Virus record (IMG/VR): IMGVR_UViG_3300033388_002089
Span: 1-21,422 of that record
From: a virus
Direction: 5' to 3' (one strand)
DNA length: 21,422 bases
The notes beneath the pieces were generated by a model. It saw nothing but the letters and a program-made list of their open reading frames with translations, searched no databases and had not been told where the DNA came from. A program made the translations under genes and the position numbers. Shown piece by piece: positions 1 through 19,777 of the stretch; positions within the stretch are counted from its first letter, which is position 1; each line of letters begins with the position of its first letter.

Positions 1-2028
1 CGTGCCAACCGTGAAGTCATTTGACATGGCGCTGGCCGCAATACGAAACACCTTCTGTGGCAGCCACGTGGTTCCAGACCATAGTGCGCCATCGTTGGTG
101 TTTGCACTATCCTGTGTCAGCTCCGACAGCGGGTGAGTGTGCGTGAGTGCAGCCGCGCCTACGTCGGTGTGGCTTATGCCTGCTACCGTGCCACTGAAGG
201 TTGCTGCACCCGCCACCACAATAGACGGCACGTGCAGTTGGTGCGAGAAGGCAAAGCGGTCCTCGCTGTCATCCCACCGAAGGTCGGCCCCGGTGTTGGA
301 GCTGTCCTCGTAGAAGAAGATGGCACCATCGCCATCGCCACCACCGTAGTTGACGTACAAGTTACCCTTGGCAAGTACGTTGCTGTCCCCGAGGATAAAC
401 CCACCAGCCGAAATGCTGCCGTCTGCTTCAATAGCGCCGGTTACGTGGAGCTTGTGTGAGAGGTCAAAGCCGACTTCACTGAGATCCCACCGCAACCATG
501 CGCCCTGGTTCGTGCCGTGCTTGAAATACAGTTGGCTATCACCATCGGACCCTCCGTAGCGCAGATAAGCACTGCCCTGAGAGTAAATCGTGCTAGCCCG
601 TGCATAGCCACCGGGCACTTCAAGGTTGCCATTTGCGATGAGCGTGTCGGCTACTGTCAGGTGCGACACGCTTAGGGTAGCACCTGCCCAATCAGTGATA
701 TGCGTCACCAAGTGGGTGTGTACTGCGGCCGCTTTGCCCGCCAAGGCGTCGAATACGCCGTTGCTCTCCACAATGTTCGTGCTGGCATCCGTTGGCACCA
801 CGTCATACGCTGCCAGCGTGTCTTCTTTGAGGTCCAGCGCCGTATTCATGACCGAAAGGGTCACCATGTTGGCGATATCGGTGTCTGTGACCATGGCTGA
901 GATATCAGCGTTGGTTACCATCGCGGTAATCTCCACGGAAGTCACCATGTTGGCAATATCCGTGTCTGTCACCATCGCAGAGATGTCTGCGGTCGTGACC
1001 ATGGCCGAAATGTCTGCATCTGTGACCATCGCCGCAATATCGGCGTTCGTAACCATGGCAGAGATGTCGCCATCGGTGACATACGTGGTCAAATCAGCAG
1101 TCGTCACCATGCTGGCGATGTCTGCGGTCGTAACCATGGCGGAAATGTCCGCGTCGGTGACCATGGCTGCGATATCGGCGTTTGTCACCATCGCAGCGAT
1201 GTCTGTGTCCGTAACCATGGCCGAAATGTCGGCCGTAGTCACCATTGCGGAGATATCCGCGTTCGTGACCATGGCGGAAATGTCGCCATCTGTCAAATAC
1301 GTGGTCAAATCCGTAGTCGTGACCATGTTCGCGATGTCAGCGTCTGTCACCATGGCTGCAATATCAGCATCTGTGACCATCGCTGCAATATCCGTGGTCG
1401 TCACGACGGGTGGATTGTTCTCAAAACGTGCATTTGTGCCGTTGTAGGCCAGCAATTCGCCGGACGCGGGGCCAGAAATGAACACATCGCTCAAAACGTG
1501 CACCGAATCTGTGGTTTCCACCATGTTTCCGATGTCATTGTCCGTCACATACGTGCTGAGGTCGGTCAATGTGACGTTATTCGTTACTTTTGCCCAGCTA
1601 GTCCCGTTCCATTCAACGCCGTCGCCCGACGAGGGGCTGTCTACTGCCGTGTCGCCAAGGTCTGCTAGGTTCTCAACACCTACAGCCTCCGTCACCGGTT
1701 CCCAAATGGCCTCTGTCGAGTTCCATCCGAGGAGCTGCCCACTCGCCGGGGCAACGGATGACACATCCGTCGAGTCCGAGAGTACGGTATCCTGGGGAGT
1801 CCAGAATTCCCCATCGAATCGCAGGAACTGGCCAACGACTGCGGCTGAGATACCAGCCATGTCGGTCAGATCACTCAGTTCAATTTCGAAAGCGTTAAGT
1901 GCATCGGCCGTGCGCTGGATGTAGGATTGGGCGGTTTGCTCTTCGGCATCCGCATTATTGGGCGTGGTGCCGGACATCGTTTCGGCAGCCTTTGCAAGCG
2001 CTGCAAGTTGTTCCAGCAATTCTTCCAT
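1..2028 (-). CDS. Tail fibre-like protein, partial (C-terminus beyond left edge)
   Basis: The minus-strand frame is open from an ATG at 2028 to base 1 (676 residues seen, no stop). The start has a GGAG ribosome binding site 7 nt upstream. The first 60 residues are helical and Ala/Glu-rich. Blocks with 'WNGT'-type motifs follow (for example SGQLLGWNSTEAIW, GDGVEWNGTSW, SGELLAYNGT). Next come twenty exact 9-residue repeats (about residues 210-389), then phage tail-fibre motifs of the HTH...ITDW and HTHPLSELTQ type, interspersed with beta-rich stretches (YGGSDGDSQLYF, YGGGDGDGAIFF). This combination is typical of trimeric tail fibre or receptor-binding shafts. Inference: it is a structural, late gene read leftward, divergent from the early genes. 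The exact role and the receptor-binding tip are not visible. Its complement contains a long open frame (626-1447), which is an artefact of the repeat. Confidence 0.85.
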   Translation of the reverse strand, partial: MEELLEQLAALAKAAETMSGTTPNNADAEEQTAQSYIQRTADALNAFEIELSDLTDMAGISAAVVGQFLRFDGEFWTPQDTVLSDSTDVSSVAPASGQLLGWNSTEAIWEPVTEAVGVENLADLGDTAVDSPSSGDGVEWNGTSWAKVTNNVTLTDLSTYVTDNDIGNMVETTDSVHVLSDVFISGPASGELLAYNGTNARFENNPPVVTTTDIAAMVTDADIAAMVTDADIANMVTTTDLTTYLTDGDISAMVTNADISAMVTTADISAMVTDTDIAAMVTNADIAAMVTDADISAMVTTADIASMVTTADLTTYVTDGDISAMVTNADIAAMVTDADISAMVTTADISAMVTDTDIANMVTSVEITAMVTNADISAMVTDTDIANMVTLSVMNTALDLKEDTLAAYDVVPTDASTNIVESNGVFDALAGKAAAVHTHLVTHITDWAGATLSVSHLTVADTLIANGNLEVPGGYARASTIYSQGSAYLRYGGSDGDSQLYFKHGTNQGAWLRWDLSEVGFDLSHKLHVTGAIEADGSISAGGFILGDSNVLAKGNLYVNYGGGDGDGAIFFYEDSSNTGADLRWDDSEDRFAFSHQLHVPSIVVAGAATFSGTVAGISHTDVGAAALTHTHPLSELTQDSANTNDGALWSGTTWLPQKVFRIAASAMSNDFTVGT
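862..1401 (-). repeat. Twenty tandem 27-nt / 9-residue repeats in the tail fibre
   Basis: Read on the minus strand, the protein shows 20 consecutive units of consensus T-x-x-D-[IL]-x-x-[MY]-[VL], such as TDADIAAMV, TNADISAMV and TTADLTTYV, with no insertion or deletion (540 nt = 20 x 27). A second level of order is visible. A DLTTY(L/V) unit followed by TDGDISAMV occurs at units 4-5 and again at units 12-13, so eight units (72 residues, 216 nt) form a superrepeat. A degenerate version (LTDLSTYV-TDNDIGNMV) lies farther upstream in the protein. DNA-level divergence is mostly at synonymous positions. A likely role is a repetitive trimeric shaft whose length can change by unequal recombination; this is inference. 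Confidence 0.93.
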
Positions 2029-2044
2029 GATGCTCCAAGAGGAT

Positions 2045-2065
2045 GGGGGGTCAAAAAGACCCCCC
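2045..2065. other. Strong hairpin just upstream of the tail fibre start
   Basis: Arms GGGGGGTC and GACCCCCC (8 bp, perfect) enclose a 5-nt A loop (U loop in the minus-strand RNA). It ends 16 nt before the tail fibre ATG and sits next to its ribosome binding site. No U-tract follows the stem on either strand, so it does not look like a normal intrinsic terminator. In the leftward mRNA it could stabilise the 5' end or affect initiation; this is inference. Confidence 0.6.
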
Positions 2066-2144
2066 GAAGGCCACAGCGAGGCCGGAGGAGGGGGGATCCG
2101 GTGCCGGGGCCTTAACTGGCATCCGGTCTATGACTAGGTTTTCT

Positions 2145-2178
2145 GGGGGGTGAGGGTGAGGAAGGGGGTTAGAAAGGG
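2145..2178 (+). other. Predicted G-quadruplex motif
   Basis: Four G-tracts on the plus strand (6, 3, 5 and 3 Gs) are separated by loops of 3, 7 and 7 nt, which fits the standard G3+N1-7 pattern. It lies in the non-coding control region, 117 nt upstream (in the leftward direction) of the tail fibre start. Confidence 0.6.
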
Positions 2179-2206
2179 TAGGTAGTAGCGCTACCACCTC
2201 TATACA

Positions 2207-2212
2207 ATTATA
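2207..2212 (-). promoter_or_regulatory. Possible -10 element of a leftward promoter for the tail fibre
   Basis: The minus strand reads TATAAT exactly here, about 180 nt before the tail fibre ATG. No good -35 hexamer lies at 17-18 nt (GGAACT is found at 17). The leader would include the G-quadruplex complement and the 2045-2065 hairpin. The call rests on the -10 alone; a phage-encoded or activated promoter is equally possible. Confidence 0.3.
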
Positions 2213-2383
2213 CCCCTTTCTACCCAATAAGTTCCCAAATATGATAATTCTTTTTCTCTTATTTCACGCTAGCCTGTAAATTGGGCGCAAATGGCCCCTA
2301 GCCCTCACCCTGGGCGATTTCCAGTATATAGCTCATTTCGGCTATACTAGGATAATTTCGCTAGAACTTTAGCCTTCTCCCCG

Positions 2384-2450
2384 GCTAGCGGGCTTGGGGG
2401 CTAGCCGATTACCCTTATGCGGCTCCGGGGCTAGCGGGCTGGTGGCTAGC
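2384..2450 (+). repeat. Tandem GCTAGC-containing repeat
   Basis: GCTAGCGGGCT at 2384-2394 recurs at 2430-2440, and GGCTAGC at 2399-2405 recurs at 2444-2450, so a unit of about 46 nt is present twice. Each copy carries two GCTAGC palindromes 15-16 nt apart. Paired palindromes at a fixed spacing suggest protein-binding sites; the binding protein is unknown. Confidence 0.7.
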
Positions 2451-2514
2451 TGGGAAGTTTCTTTTTTGTAGCCAGTTTTGTGTGCACGGGAGGTTACCCG
2501 GGCGATTCACGTCA

Positions 2515-2566
2515 AGGGCGGGCCCCCTGGGGGTCTTGATAATAAAAATTCAATGGGGGCCGCCCT
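2515..2566. other. Large GC-rich inverted repeat with AT-rich loop
   Basis: AGGGCGGGCCCCC (2515-2527) pairs with GGGGGCCGCCCT (2555-2566) over 12 bp with one bulged G. The 27-nt loop contains the AT-rich stretch TTGATAATAAAAATTCAAT. A competing palindrome (CCCCCTGGGGG, 2523-2533) overlaps the left arm. This could be a cruciform or unwinding element of an origin, or an RNA structure. There is no terminal U-tract. Confidence 0.6.
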
Positions 2567-2801
2567 CCTGCCGCTAGCCCCCAGGCGGCCAAATGATTTC
2601 TGATAATCAATAACCAATACCCCCGCCGGGCCCCCGGGCCCCCTGGAGGCTAGCCCCCATTCCCTAGACTTCCTCATGATGCCTCGCGATGGGCTAGAGG
2701 GTAGCGGGGTAGCGTGTAGTTGCTCGTTGTTTAGGGTAGTACCCTATCACTCCCCTACCCCATGATACCCCATACTTCCTTGTAGTTACCTATCCCTACC
2801 C

Positions 2802-2855
2802 ATGCTACCCTCTAGCCCCCTATGATGCCGGGTGTAAACCCCTATAGGGTAGCAT
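2802..2855. other. 10-bp inverted repeat with inner hairpin
   Basis: ATGCTACCCT (2802-2811) and AGGGTAGCAT (2846-2855) are perfect reverse complements. Inside the 34-nt loop, GGGT-GTAA-ACCC forms a smaller hairpin. The shorter palindrome AGGGTA-G-TACCCT lies at 2733-2745. All share the GGGTA core that is repeated across 2698-2890, shortly upstream of promoter P1, so they may be operators for the early promoter; this is inference. Confidence 0.55.
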
Positions 2856-2929
2856 AGGGTACTACGACCCATTACTGGGTAGCCTGGGTAACAGTAGGTG
2901 GCCAATGGGGCAAAATACCACAATACATG

Positions 2930-2958
2930 TGGACAATTACCCTAATCTGTGGTACAAT
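2930..2958 (+). promoter_or_regulatory. Early promoter P1 (sigma70-like)
   Basis: TGGACA (2930-2935), a 17-nt spacer and TACAAT (2953-2958) give 5/6 matches in each hexamer with the ideal spacing. Transcription would begin near 2965 and read the early cassette. The -10 is preceded by GG, as in P2 and P3 further right. Confidence 0.75.
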
Positions 2959-2963
2959 GGGGA

Positions 2964-3143
2964 ATGACTAGGCACCATAGGGCACCACAGGACATGGCAC
3001 GGAAATTGCTACATCTTTCCCTTGGTCCCGGGCCCGGAGGCACTATGGGGCAGCATAAGGAACAACCGGACGCTCAAGGGAGCCGAAGGGAAACATCGGG
3101 AACCACAGGGAATCCCGAGCAACAGAAGGATAGGGAATCATGA
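2964..3143 (+). CDS. Possible small early protein (59 aa), unknown
   Basis: The frame from ATG 2964 ends in TGA at 3141-3143, which overlaps the next ATG (ATGA), as in most joints of this genome. Against it: the start lies at the predicted transcription start of P1 with no room for a ribosome binding site, and the product (rich in Gly, Gln, Arg, Pro) has no recognisable fold. An internal ATG at 2994 is another possible start. The extended GTG at 2949 overlaps the P1 -10 and is rejected. The stretch may instead be an untranslated leader. Confidence 0.3.
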   Translation: MTRHHRAPQDMARKLLHLSLGPGPGGTMGQHKEQPDAQGSRRETSGTTGNPEQQKDRES

Positions 3144-3334
3144 GGAACTTACTGGAACAACTGGCAACGATGAGCATCATTGAGAATCACCAGGAAGCGA
3201 TCAGGTACGGCGAGGCACGGAAGGAAAGGATGGACCACGGGATGGAACGATTGACCATCATGCTCCACATCTGGGACTTAGAGGAAAGCATGAGGAACCA
3301 CGAGGCCGCACTGGAAGCGATGAGCAACAACTAG
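3140..3334 (+). CDS. Small early protein (64 aa), helical, unknown
   Basis: It starts at ATG 3140 with a purine-rich AAGGATAGGG upstream and an ATGA overlap with the preceding frame. The protein is charged and helix-forming (LLEQLATM...EARKERM...LEESMRNHEAALEAM), with the heptad-like spacing of a short coiled coil. It shows length and charge similarity to the 71-residue protein at 4304-4519, which has an analogous WD-E-x-x-R/I pattern, so the two may be distant relatives. Function unknown. Confidence 0.6.
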   Translation: MRNLLEQLATMSIIENHQEAIRYGEARKERMDHGMERLTIMLHIWDLEESMRNHEAALEAMSNN

Positions 3335-3381
3335 CCATATTCGGTCCCCAGGGGGCGGAATACAAGGAAGGATGAGGAACA

Positions 3382-4107
3382 ATGAGTAGTCAGAAGAAAC
3401 AATCGACCTTCGCAAGGAAGCAGAAGGAACAGAAGAGGAAGCTGAGCAACTACTTGAAGCGCTCGGCCATCAAGAGAAGCGTCAAGGAAGTTGGAGGCAT
3501 TGGGCTCCCTTCTAAGATGCCAGGGTACGCGTACGGGTTGTCTGCGGAACTATGTGGTACGGGTGGGAAACTACGAGGAGTGATAGGGAGCGTCTGTGAA
3601 GGATGCTACGCAATGGGGAGCAACTACGCCTATCCGTCCGTCAAGAAGGCGCATGAGGCACGACTGGAAAGCCTGGGTAACCTTGAGAAATGGGTGGACA
3701 ATATGGGGACGATCATGGACTATCTGGGAAGCGTGCTACCCGATGAGGAGCGATGCTGGAGATGGCATGACTCTGGGGACTTACAGGGAATAACGCACCT
3801 GCATGCGATCGTACAGGTAGCGATAAGGAACCCTGGGTGGCGCTTCTGGATCCCGACGAAAGAATACGCCATCGTGAGGAAGTACACGGAAGAACACGCA
3901 ATCCCAGGGAATCTTGCGGTACGAATGTCCGCGCCGATGCTAAATAAGGCATGCCCGGGAGCGCTGAAGGAACTCACGGGATTATACTCCACCGTGGGGC
4001 ACGATGAGGAACAACGGTGCCCAGCGTACGACCAAGAGGGATTCTGCGGAACATGCAGGAAGTGTTGGGACTCATCGGAAGCGTGCACGGACTACCCGAA
4101 GCACTAG
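3382..4107 (+). CDS. GP88-family phage protein (241 aa)
   Basis: The product resembles the 'gene product 88' family (type member from mycobacteriophage L5), whose biochemical role is not established. Diagnostic features in order: a Lys/Arg-rich N-terminus (1-35); KMPG...L-S-A-x-x-C with C58; the C72-x2-C75-Y-A motif; RWHDSGDLQ near residue 130; FWIPTKEY near 160; NLAVRMSA; and a Cys cluster ending in CPAY...CGTCRKCW and a terminal YPKH. The conserved cysteines suggest metal or Fe-S binding; this is inference. It starts at ATG 3382 after AAGGAAGGATGAGGAACA, is full length for the family, and lies in a GGAA-rich segment. It is followed by several very small genes. Confidence 0.85.
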   Translation: MSSQKKQSTFARKQKEQKRKLSNYLKRSAIKRSVKEVGGIGLPSKMPGYAYGLSAELCGTGGKLRGVIGSVCEGCYAMGSNYAYPSVKKAHEARLESLGNLEKWVDNMGTIMDYLGSVLPDEERCWRWHDSGDLQGITHLHAIVQVAIRNPGWRFWIPTKEYAIVRKYTEEHAIPGNLAVRMSAPMLNKACPGALKELTGLYSTVGHDEEQRCPAYDQEGFCGTCRKCWDSSEACTDYPKH

Positions 4108-4136
4108 GAAACAACAAGTAACAATGGAGGACGACA

Positions 4137-4277
4137 ATGTACAACCACGACTTACTGGACATTACATACGACTACGCGGAACATCGCTACGTGGTATGGT
4201 ACGATGGGGTATTTCTAGGACTGACAAAGACTTACGGGGACGCACACTACCTCGTAATCAACTACGTGGTAAGCTAA
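4137..4277 (+). CDS. Small acidic/aromatic protein (46 aa), unknown
   Basis: It starts at ATG 4137 behind a clear ribosome binding site (GGAGG, 6-7 nt away) and ends at TAA 4275-4277. The product is rich in Tyr, Asp and Val (for example HRYVVWYDGVFLGLTKTYGD) and looks like a compact beta-strand-rich domain. It lies between the GP88-family gene and the 71-aa gene in a different frame from the long overlapping open frame 4004-4519. That choice is supported by the ribosome binding site and the protein-like composition. No family is recognised. Confidence 0.65.
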   Translation: MYNHDLLDITYDYAEHRYVVWYDGVFLGLTKTYGDAHYLVINYVVS

Positions 4278-4303
4278 GCCACAACAAGGAAGGACTGGAC
4301 ATC

Positions 4304-4519
4304 ATGAATACCAACAAGAAACTTTGGGACATTGAGATACGCATCCTGGCACGCCAGGAAACAATAGCACGCGGTGAGAGACGACACGCAGTCACGAAGG
4401 ACAAGGAGGAACAACGGGTAATCGAAGCGTACATCTGGGACGAACAGAGGAAGATAGGGAACGACACGATCGAACTGGAAACCCTGACCCGTTACCTGAC
4501 GCAACAGGGAACCGCGTGA
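4304..4519 (+). CDS. Small helical protein (71 aa), unknown
   Basis: The frame is open from 4004, but the part before 4304 overlaps two better genes. ATG 4304 has AAGGAAGGA about 10 nt upstream and gives a soluble, charged, mostly helical protein (LWDIEIRILARQE, EAYIWDEQRKIG, LETLTRYLTQQ). Similar charged short proteins are common in phage early regions. No function can be assigned. Confidence 0.6.
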   Translation: MNTNKKLWDIEIRILARQETIARGERRHAVTKDKEEQRVIEAYIWDEQRKIGNDTIELETLTRYLTQQGTA

Positions 4520-4525
4520 GGCATC

Positions 4526-4708
4526 ATGAGGACGCGCAAGGAGCCACTAGCCACTAGCCAGGACAACGCGGAGCGTCAGACCGCTACGGGGAGCGGTAGG
4601 CCACTACGCGGGAGCGGGCTAGGGGCTAGCAGGAAGCGTGCCAACTGGACTGAATGGACGAAAAAAGAAAGTGTGAGACGGTGTGAAAATAATGTTAAAG
4701 GTGCTTGA
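4526..4708 (+). CDS. Doubtful small basic ORF (60 aa)
   Basis: The frame starts at ATG 4526, 6 nt after the previous stop, and ends at 4708 inside the -35 of promoter P2. The product is Arg/Thr/Gly-rich low complexity without a recognisable fold. The DNA contains ACCGCT...AGCGGT inverted arms and CTAG repeats (CCACTAGCCACTAGCC, GCTAGGGGCTAGC) like those of the non-coding region at 2268-2654. It may therefore be an intergenic regulatory segment rather than a gene. Confidence 0.25.
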   Translation: MRTRKEPLATSQDNAERQTATGSGRPLRGSGLGASRKRANWTEWTKKESVRRCENNVKGA

Positions 4709-4734
4709 CAAGCGTGCCGATACCATGGTACAAT
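4705..4734 (+). promoter_or_regulatory. Promoter P2 (sigma70-like)
   Basis: A perfect TTGACA (4705-4710), an 18-nt spacer and TACAAT (4729-4734), preceded by GG as in P1 and P3. The predicted start near 4741 gives a leader of about 46 nt with a CA dinucleotide run before the AAA+ ATPase gene. It is the strongest-looking promoter for the 4787-8295 operon. Confidence 0.85.
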
Positions 4735-4786
4735 TGTGCATCACAAGAGATAGAGAACGCACACACACACGATGAAAGGAAGAGCG

Positions 4787-17926: not shown

Positions 17927-18486
17927 AAGTCATTGGGGTCAGCGGCAAGATGCACAGTGGCAAGACCTATGTCACTGACCGACTGATCGACCGTGACCTG
18001 GGCAGGCGCTTGTCGTTTGCCGGGCCACTCAAGCGGGACATCCTCAACATGGGCTTCACGCAGAAGGACATCGACGAGAAACCTCCTTGGATGCGGAAGC
18101 TGATGCAGGTGTACGGGCAGGCGAAGCGTGCTGTCGATCCGGATCACTGGGTCAACCAGCTCATGCTTGACATCGCGGAGAAGTACCGCACCGAGCAGCT
18201 ACCCACCCTCTTCGGCAGTGCGGAGCGGGTCATCTTCATCGATGACATCCGCTTTGAGAACGAAGCCGATGCGATCATCAACCTGCGGGACCAGGGTATC
18301 GCTAGCCGTCTCATCCGGATGGAGCGCAAGGACTACGACCGTGATGACATCATCGGGTCCGATGACCTGAGCGAGATGGCTCTGGATTACTACCCCGACT
18401 TCGACATGACCTATCACGTCCCGAGCGGTGACTTGCAGGGACTGGTTTCTGTGGCTACTTCACTGGAGGACTGGTTGAATGGATGA
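17923..18486 (+). CDS. Deoxynucleoside monophosphate kinase (187 aa)
   Basis: The P-loop G8-KMHS-G13-K14-T15 opens the protein. The segment LMQVYGQAKRAVDPDHWVNQL and the RVIFIDDIRFENEADAI strand-loop are typical of phage dNMP kinases (T4 gp1 type). It phosphorylates dNMPs from degraded host DNA to dNDPs for phage DNA synthesis. The helicase start overlaps its end by 8 nt. Confidence 0.8.
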   Translation: MKVIGVSGKMHSGKTYVTDRLIDRDLGRRLSFAGPLKRDILNMGFTQKDIDEKPPWMRKLMQVYGQAKRAVDPDHWVNQLMLDIAEKYRTEQLPTLFGSAERVIFIDDIRFENEADAIINLRDQGIASRLIRMERKDYDRDDIIGSDDLSEMALDYYPDFDMTYHVPSGDLQGLVSVATSLEDWLNG

Positions 18487-19777
18487 ATTACAAGCCCAGG
18501 TGTTGCAGGCGCTCCTCACCAAAGCAGGTTGGGCGGAGTTCGGCATCATCATCACGCCCGACATCATCGGGAACACCAACGTCCGGACTCTTTACACTGC
18601 TATCTCTAGCATGCACCAGCGTACTCAGGGGGACATCACCCCTGACTCGCTGGGCATTGACGTGTCGGCCACCTTTAAAGGGGACAGGCTCGACGAACTT
18701 CTGGACCTGATCGAACTGGTAGAGAACACGAAGGCGGTGCCACATGACGCACTCCATCAATCCGCAAGACGATGGGCCCAGCGAGAGCTGCTCACCCAAG
18801 CGTCCAAGTATGTGGCTACGAATCTGGCATCGCCTGACCTCGACCCCCACGTTGCTCACCATCTATGTAGCCGCGCCGTGGATCTCGTTGAATCAGCGGG
18901 TGGCTCAGTCGTGGACCTCGACGACACTGGCTTACCAGGAACGACCGACGATAGGCCAGGTCTTTGTCCTCTTGGCATATCGCCTCAGCTTGATGCTAGC
19001 CTCGGTGGTGGCACTGCTGCTGGCGAGCTTGCAGTTCTTCTTGCTCCTCCCGCTCGTGGTAAGACCAGCTACTTGGTGGCGATCGGGGCGAAAGCCGCCC
19101 TCTCTGGTAGGCACGTACTCCACGTCACCCTCGAAATCTCAACCCGAAGAGTCGGGCGGCGATTCGATTCAGCGCTCACCGGGATCAAGAGTTCAGGACT
19201 TATCCAATCGGTCACAGCGGTTGCTGCGGCGAGGAAGCAGGTCAAGAAAGCGGGTGGCTCAGTCCACATCAAAGACTGGTCCTACGGAGACGTAGGCCCG
19301 AACGACATCCGAGGATTAGTGAAGGGTATGCGAGCGATGGGCCAGTCAGTGGACGTGGTGATCGTGGACTACTTGGAACTACTCCAACCCAACAAGGGAG
19401 ATAACTATCAGCGCCGTGAACAGCGGCACGTCTACGGTATGCTTGGCAAGCAGATGCGAGCCATGGCTGTGTGCCTGGACGTACCGGTGATTACTGCTTG
19501 GCAGGTCAACCGCGAGGGAAGTGACATGCACAACGTCGAGTTGCGGCACGTCTCTGAGTCGTGGGACATCATCAAGCACGCTGACCAGATCATCTCCATG
19601 AACCAGACGGACGCTGAGCGCGACGAACGCATCATGAGATTGCGTGTGCTCAAGCAAAGGGACAGTACGGATAGGTCAGTGTTCTACTTGCACTCTGACC
19701 TCGACCGCATGGTCATCCGAGACAGTTCAGACCCACGAGGTGACACCATTGATAAACCAACCCTTCACTCAGGATGA
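18479..19777 (+). CDS. DnaB-like replicative helicase (432 aa)
   Basis: A RecA-like core with Walker A APPARGKT (189-196), Walker B VVIVDYLELL (D297), ITAWQVNREG and a C-terminal RLRVLKQRDS motif identifies a hexameric DnaB-family helicase that unwinds the fork. Residues 1-100 form a helical N-terminal domain (VRTLYTAISSMHQ...), like the primase-interacting domain. It works with the separate primase at 12722. Its 3' end overlaps the HAD gene by 29 nt. Confidence 0.87.
   Translation: MDELQAQVLQALLTKAGWAEFGIIITPDIIGNTNVRTLYTAISSMHQRTQGDITPDSLGIDVSATFKGDRLDELLDLIELVENTKAVPHDALHQSARRWAQRELLTQASKYVATNLASPDLDPHVAHHLCSRAVDLVESAGGSVVDLDDTGLPGTTDDRPGLCPLGISPQLDASLGGGTAAGELAVLLAPPARGKTSYLVAIGAKAALSGRHVLHVTLEISTRRVGRRFDSALTGIKSSGLIQSVTAVAAARKQVKKAGGSVHIKDWSYGDVGPNDIRGLVKGMRAMGQSVDVVIVDYLELLQPNKGDNYQRREQRHVYGMLGKQMRAMAVCLDVPVITAWQVNREGSDMHNVELRHVSESWDIIKHADQIISMNQTDAERDERIMRLRVLKQRDSTDRSVFYLHSDLDRMVIRDSSDPRGDTIDKPTLHSG

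Follow-up and report, generated by a model that had tools for sequence, protein, structure and literature searches.

What seven copies of the palindrome GCTAGC are doing in a gene-free stretch of phage DNA is the question that this locus raises. The window (W), the whole stretch of DNA analysed here, is an entire IMG/VR record of 21,422 bp from an apparently virulent tailed phage. Its left end is occupied by a tail-fibre-like gene called as an open reading frame (1 to 2028, minus strand, incomplete at the record's left edge), which is the first leftward gene beside the region and is weakly matched by tblastn at the corresponding position of two relatives, G2 and G6. The DADIAAMVT coding repeats of this gene (801-1400) are the strongest direct repeats in the window. 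Between it and the rightward early and replication genes lies one large gene-free control region, 2031-2960, that is rich in short inverted repeats; the list of open reading frames contains no supported gene from 2031 to 3139. The rightward arm holds a replication set (primase, PolA, SSB, DnaB-type helicase and RuvC-like), with gene starts at 3382 (GP88), 4772 (AAA+ ATPase), 6505 (DUF7192), 12695 (DNA primase), 13572 (family-A polymerase), 15938 (SSB) and 18479 (DnaB-like helicase). Our proposed answer is that the region could be a replication origin combined with a control region for divergent early and late transcription, its binding sites being specific to each lineage, a reading for which we consider the case evenly balanced.

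The seven sites occupy 2268-2654 and start at 2268, 2384, 2400, 2430, 2445, 2573 and 2649, exactly as the original prediction had listed them, with irregular spacings of 116, 16, 30, 15, 128 and 76. The whole record contains 13 copies of GCTAGC where 3.5 are expected, and its densest 387-bp stretch has seven, compared with three at most in 2000 Markov shuffles of the window. The accompanying claim of dense CTAG tetramers also holds (10 in 387 bp versus at most 8 in shuffles), with 14 in 2031-2960, where the expectation from an equal length elsewhere is 1.4, versus 31 across the other 20.5 kb. The rarity of CTAG to which the same prediction appealed, however, amounts to only a mild depletion in the rest of the window (31 versus ~40 expected). 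The pairing of sites at 15-16 nt and their duplication as a 46-bp unit are present as described: the two copies (repeat family D7, 2377-2445, plus strand) are spaced by 46 bp, each opens a GCTAGC pair 15-16 nt apart, and 2377-2399 is 83% identical to 2423-2445. Two GCTAGC sites belong to an 18-nt inverted repeat (I3, 2573-2590 and 2637-2654), and further to the right is a perfect 15-nt inverted repeat (I4), GGGCTAGAGGGTAGC at 2691-2705 and GCTACCCTCTAGCCC at 2804-2818.

The hexamer itself is one part of a wider set of words. The region's own content of CTAGC and GCTAG predicts ~5.8 copies of GCTAGC, so the palindrome adds little to its component pentamers and need not be the recognised unit, and the total of palindromic hexamers in the region is not raised relative to shuffles of the region (P = 0.31). 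A looser vocabulary of GCTA/TAGC, CTAG and GGGTAGC words extends over both strands of 2031-2960. GCTA/TAGC occurs 29 times in these 930 bp versus 4.7 times per equal length elsewhere, GGGTAGC/GCTACCC is found on both strands towards the right part of the region, and there are 129 inverted 7-mer pairs versus no more than 52 anywhere else in the window. Folded locally as RNA, the cluster does not outperform its shuffles (z from +0.7 to -1.9), and the DNA-fold z of -6.7 arises because the words are present on both strands. A scan for intrinsic terminators was near chance (3 found versus 2.5 expected), and searches of the window found no Rfam family and no tRNA. Mean predicted curvature is raised in 2031-2960, with the window maximum within 2031-2690 and values near the genome mean in the phased tract described below, but we do not rely on this prediction.

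The region has no nucleotide relative among 50,697 phage records, and an IMG/VR search with the AAA+ and DUF7192 proteins gave no relatives. Relatives were sought by alignment of the polymerase and of the helicase, and contigs of one lineage were retrieved. Four of them contain the syntenic strand switch (G2, 51.7 kb; G6, 50.9 kb; G7, 37.4 kb; G8, 51.8 kb), with polymerases 47-57% identical to that of the window and a conserved gene order of primase, polymerase, SSB, nuclease, helicase and RuvC-like. The five contigs nearest to the window, with polymerases 57-65% identical over the part that matched, are fragments that do not include the gap. The lineage is little known and was found here in metagenomic contigs only. 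Although listed as linear in IMG/VR, the contigs of G2, G6 and G8 have end overlaps of 126 bp, 20 bp and ~115 bp, respectively, which indicates that they are circularly complete and that their assemblies have no fixed end at the gap.

When inverted 7-mer pairs were counted, without any choice of words, the syntenic gap was the genome maximum in all five phages (W, G2, G6, G7 and G8), narrowly so in G7. In a genome-wide scan for clustered short words the gap is the top-ranked stretch of each of the four relatives; in the window it comes second, behind the tail-fibre coding repeat. The words themselves change from one phage to the next, being in brief CTAG/GGGTAC, GCTTAGC, ATGCAT and GCTAGC/GATATC in the gaps of the relatives. 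In full, G2 has GCTTAGC/GTTAGC/CTAACA, G6 has ACTAGG/CTAGTA/GGGTACTAG, G7 has GCTAGC, GATATC, CACGTA and CATACAG, and G8 has ATGCAT, GCATAC and GGGTAGCCC. The original prediction had staked the cluster on GCTAGC being scarcer elsewhere in the genome and on close relatives sharing it. The first part stands, since GCTAGC is not equally common elsewhere, whereas the second is divided: the hexamer cluster recurs in one relative only, G7 (22520, 22541, 22874 and 22984, four sites in 470 bp), is not found in G2 or G6, and has a single GCTAGC as its counterpart in the G8 gap. A separate relative, G001 (35.6 kb), has 26 GCTAGC spread throughout and no CGATCG. To judge from these genomes, the conserved trait is a repeat cluster at this position and not the GCTAGC hexamer. 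The suggestion that the words are a family of protein-binding sites is supported to that extent, by their position in a control region and by the comparable clusters that four relatives have at the equivalent position.

A more conserved core lies within the variable words. The order T-tract, 57-58 bp, GGGCCCCCTGGGGG and AT-rich DNA is clearly common to W, G2 and G6. In W (2461-2552, plus strand) the core consists of CTTTTTTGT (2461-2469), a spacing of ~58 bp, GGGCCCCCTGGGGG (~2520-2533) and an AT-rich part, with the same element order as in G2 and G6, where the T-tract is followed after 57 bp by GGGCCCCC(C)TGGGG and then by an AT-rich stretch. The G2 and G6 cores align over 107 bp without gaps (63.6% identity, E=1.35e-7). 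G7 and G8 match the core weakly, and TTTTTTGTAGCCAG is common to W and G7. The pattern CTTTTTTGT-N40-60-GGCCCCCTGGGG had a single match, in G2, among 2.9 million IMG/VR contigs, a collection that may leave out the window's own record. The folds predict a GC-rich hairpin with an AT-rich loop over the core (2515-2566), of a strength that is not exceptional within its own genome.

One simple explanation would be that the repeats have no site-specific function and are what slippage and recombination left behind in non-coding DNA free of constraint, as the length of the region, the degeneracy of its words and their differences between relatives might suggest. We consider this very unlikely: five phages are extreme at the same strand switch and have a shared core, and inverted repeats are as frequent as direct repeats, which tandem slippage would not give. 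The control region is real and ordinary in kind, but unusually variable.

Under the reading that we prefer, the region at the boundary of the leftward late and rightward early genes would be the replication origin and, at the same time, the platform for divergent early/late promoters. We infer that both orientations of the words GCTAGC and GGGTAGC would be binding sites of a phage-specific DNA-binding protein which may evolve quickly together with its sites, giving each relative its own vocabulary at the same place, and that the more conserved core, with its T-tract, 57-58 bp spacing, GC-rich palindrome and AT-rich part, could be the site of strand opening or priming. The repeated sites are clustered in non-coding DNA, as in origins with repeated initiator sites. 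A classical iteron array can be set aside, the words being 6-8 bp long, in both orientations and irregularly spaced, not regular direct repeats of ~17-22 bp. Cumulative GC-skew minima are at or near the gap in G6 (18458), G8 (2187) and W (1747), as are the AT-skew minima of G2 (33941), W (2835), G6 (18449) and G8 (2381); both minima of G7 are just right of the gap (GC 23687, AT 23313). The initiator role put forward in the original prediction fits these minima, but a skew minimum at the gap is expected equally of a bidirectional origin and of divergent transcription, and the two are thus confounded. A skew comparison using genes of opposite orientation did not separate the effects of origin and transcription, most such ORFs being spurious. 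In four of the five phages (W, G6, G7 and G8) the gap or its immediate flank holds the first- or second-ranked AT-rich 100-bp peak, which is not the case in G2. The proteins scanned, a subset of the ORFs, included no recognisable initiator, and clustered DnaA boxes were not found.

A rival reading is multi-operator transcription control with no origin function: the words would be recognised by an early regulator, or by an RNA-polymerase modifier, responsible for the timing of the divergent early and late promoters. Divergent gene orientation alone could give the skew minimum. Promoter-like sites do flank the region. A candidate early promoter, P1 (TGGACA-17-TACAAT, 2930-2958, plus strand), is found at its right end, with a P1-like GGTACAATGG at ~23126 in G7, and a second promoter-like match, P2 (TTGACA-18-TACAAT, 4705-4734, plus strand), is upstream of the AAA+ ATPase gene at 4772. 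In addition, TGGCACggaaaTTGCT at 2995-3010 (plus strand), at the start of the early region, matches the sigma-54 -24/-12 consensus. The related repeats predicted upstream of P2 exist as a secondary CTAG/GCTAGC cluster at 4547-4630, with CTAG at 4547, 4554, 4619 and 4626, just upstream of P2 at a distance of ~80 bp. This small second GCTAGC cluster suits transcription control better than an origin, and the presence of sites in both orientations is also compatible with operators. On the other hand, an HTH_3 regulator was not found in the five phages, a region of more than 900 bp with ~30 words is large for promoter control alone, and the promoter-like matches are near chance level (3 found versus 2.0 expected in the scan). 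We view control by operators alone as possible but doubtful.

The gap could also be a packaging (pac) region, perhaps with late rolling-circle replication, in which case the small terminase would bind the words. In G7 the first leftward gene next to the gap is TerS-like; in G8 a TerS-like gene borders the gap, and in G2 one lies within ~2 kb of it. The circular assemblies fit headful packaging, and the Vibrio phage ICP1 has a 1.3-kb ORF-less space, connected with rolling-circle replication, that contains its predicted pac site (PMC7145576). Weighing against these points, W and G2 have a tail-fibre gene separating the gap from the packaging genes or from the record edge, contig ends do not cluster at the gap, and the TerS assignments are weak by profile (E ~0.002). 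We regard a packaging region as unlikely. Between terL and the TerS-like gene of G8 there is a tRNA-like sequence (reverse complement, ~949-1020).

The repressor and partition-like readings that had been offered for the sites fare worse. Many short words in intergenic DNA are indeed what an immunity-repressor stoperator array or a partition centre would present, as in the stoperators of Cluster A mycobacteriophages or in parS clusters. However, searches for tyrosine integrase, HTH_3 and ParB_N in W, G2, G6, G7 and G8, which covered these three families and detected their positive controls, found no match, and for that reason both immunity and partition are disfavoured. The sites are also equally frequent in both orientations, unlike oriented stoperators (PMC4351075). 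We hold either role to be highly improbable. The resemblance to Cluster A thus comes down to many copies of a short binding site, the stoperators being asymmetric, oriented with transcription and linked to immunity, whereas here both orientations are used and neither a repressor nor an integrase was detected.

Other known systems also offer parallels. The pac space of ICP1 and the iteron origin of its PLE satellite likewise consist of repeat-bearing non-coding DNA for replication or packaging, and the PLE iterons are semi-palindromic and bound by PLE's own RepA (PMC7145576). In contrast, our region has irregular site spacing, and no RepA_N-like initiator was identified among the proteins scanned. 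Cluster O mycobacteriophages, which yield no stable lysogens, also have short palindromes, and an AT-rich element with flanking complex repeats has been suggested as their origin (PMC4351075). In Cluster O a nearly invariant 17-bp palindrome is dispersed throughout the genome, whereas the words described here are on the scale of hexamers, are concentrated in one strand-switch gap and change between relatives.

The surprising part of the locus is a neighbouring tract, phased at 10 bp, that starts inside the region and was missed in the earlier account of it. In the purine-rich DNA to the right of the region, GG(A/C/G)A words are spaced at multiples of 10 bp. From 3357 to 4510, 51 of 53 such words are in phases 6-9 modulo 10 (binomial p ~3e-18, the phases having been chosen after the data were seen). 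The degenerate repeat, GGAACNAYRR, carries ~3-4 bits of information per 10 bp in its best segments. Its period-10 score reaches 137 bits per 500 bp; of 16,903 windows drawn from 1.75 Mb of phage DNA the runner-up, which belongs to a long gene repeat, scores 32. The period-10 signal of L054 is that of a long tandem gene repeat and not of a phased tract. The tract extends from ~2690 to 4650, ending just before P2; the phased word is TACCC on the minus strand at ~2740-2830 and is on the plus strand from ~2845, with an apparent reversal of strand near 2830. The plus strand of 2960-4720 is 62% purine (maximum elsewhere, 57%) and has 26.7 GGAA per kb versus 5.6.

The tract crosses the GP88-family gene (PF17338, E=6.4e-26; 3382-4107, plus strand), whose homologue in G7 is 44% identical, and three small ORFs, and it does so in all codon frames. 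When the synonymous codons of GP88 are permuted, the score, 45.6 in the native gene, averages 17.8 and reaches at most 35.3 in 1000 permutations. Two of the three small ORFs respond likewise, from which it follows that codon choice, and partly amino-acid choice, follow a rhythm at the DNA or RNA level. None of the four relatives (G2, G6, G7 and G8) has the phased tract, and 2690-4720 has no nucleotide relative in 72,556 plasmids. In G6, 18251-18550, inside the repeat gap, gives the highest period-10 score of that genome (23.8 bits per 300 bp), a weak signal that does not clearly exceed noise. A CsrA-like sponge is not favoured, A.GGA making up 35 of 92 GGA, near the base expectation.

The exact 10-bp period suggests a cooperative protein that recognises one face of B-DNA. 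The tract might then be a long periodic code, overlaid on coding sequence, for such a protein, which would start from the palindrome cluster and wrap or coat the DNA, or the early RNA, in an outward direction, a proposal that we put forward tentatively and as possible rather than probable. The p6 protein of phi29, which acts in replication initiation and in the early-to-late switch, binds with a monomer every 12 bp, or every 11 bp in GA-1 (PMC10899789). A regular helical periodicity of this type, with a period of 10 bp, is present in 2690-4650, and the likeness is one of analogy only: p6 reads bendability, whereas the tract has an explicit base pattern every 10 bp.

The locus is thus a candidate replication and control centre of which five versions are available, and in these the words differ while position and core persist. 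The five versions form a natural series for the co-evolution of DNA-binding proteins and their sites. Among the 1.75 Mb of phage DNA used for comparison the phased tract is quantitatively exceptional, and real genes are constrained by it; should it be a nucleoprotein code, synonymous recoding would offer a direct test.
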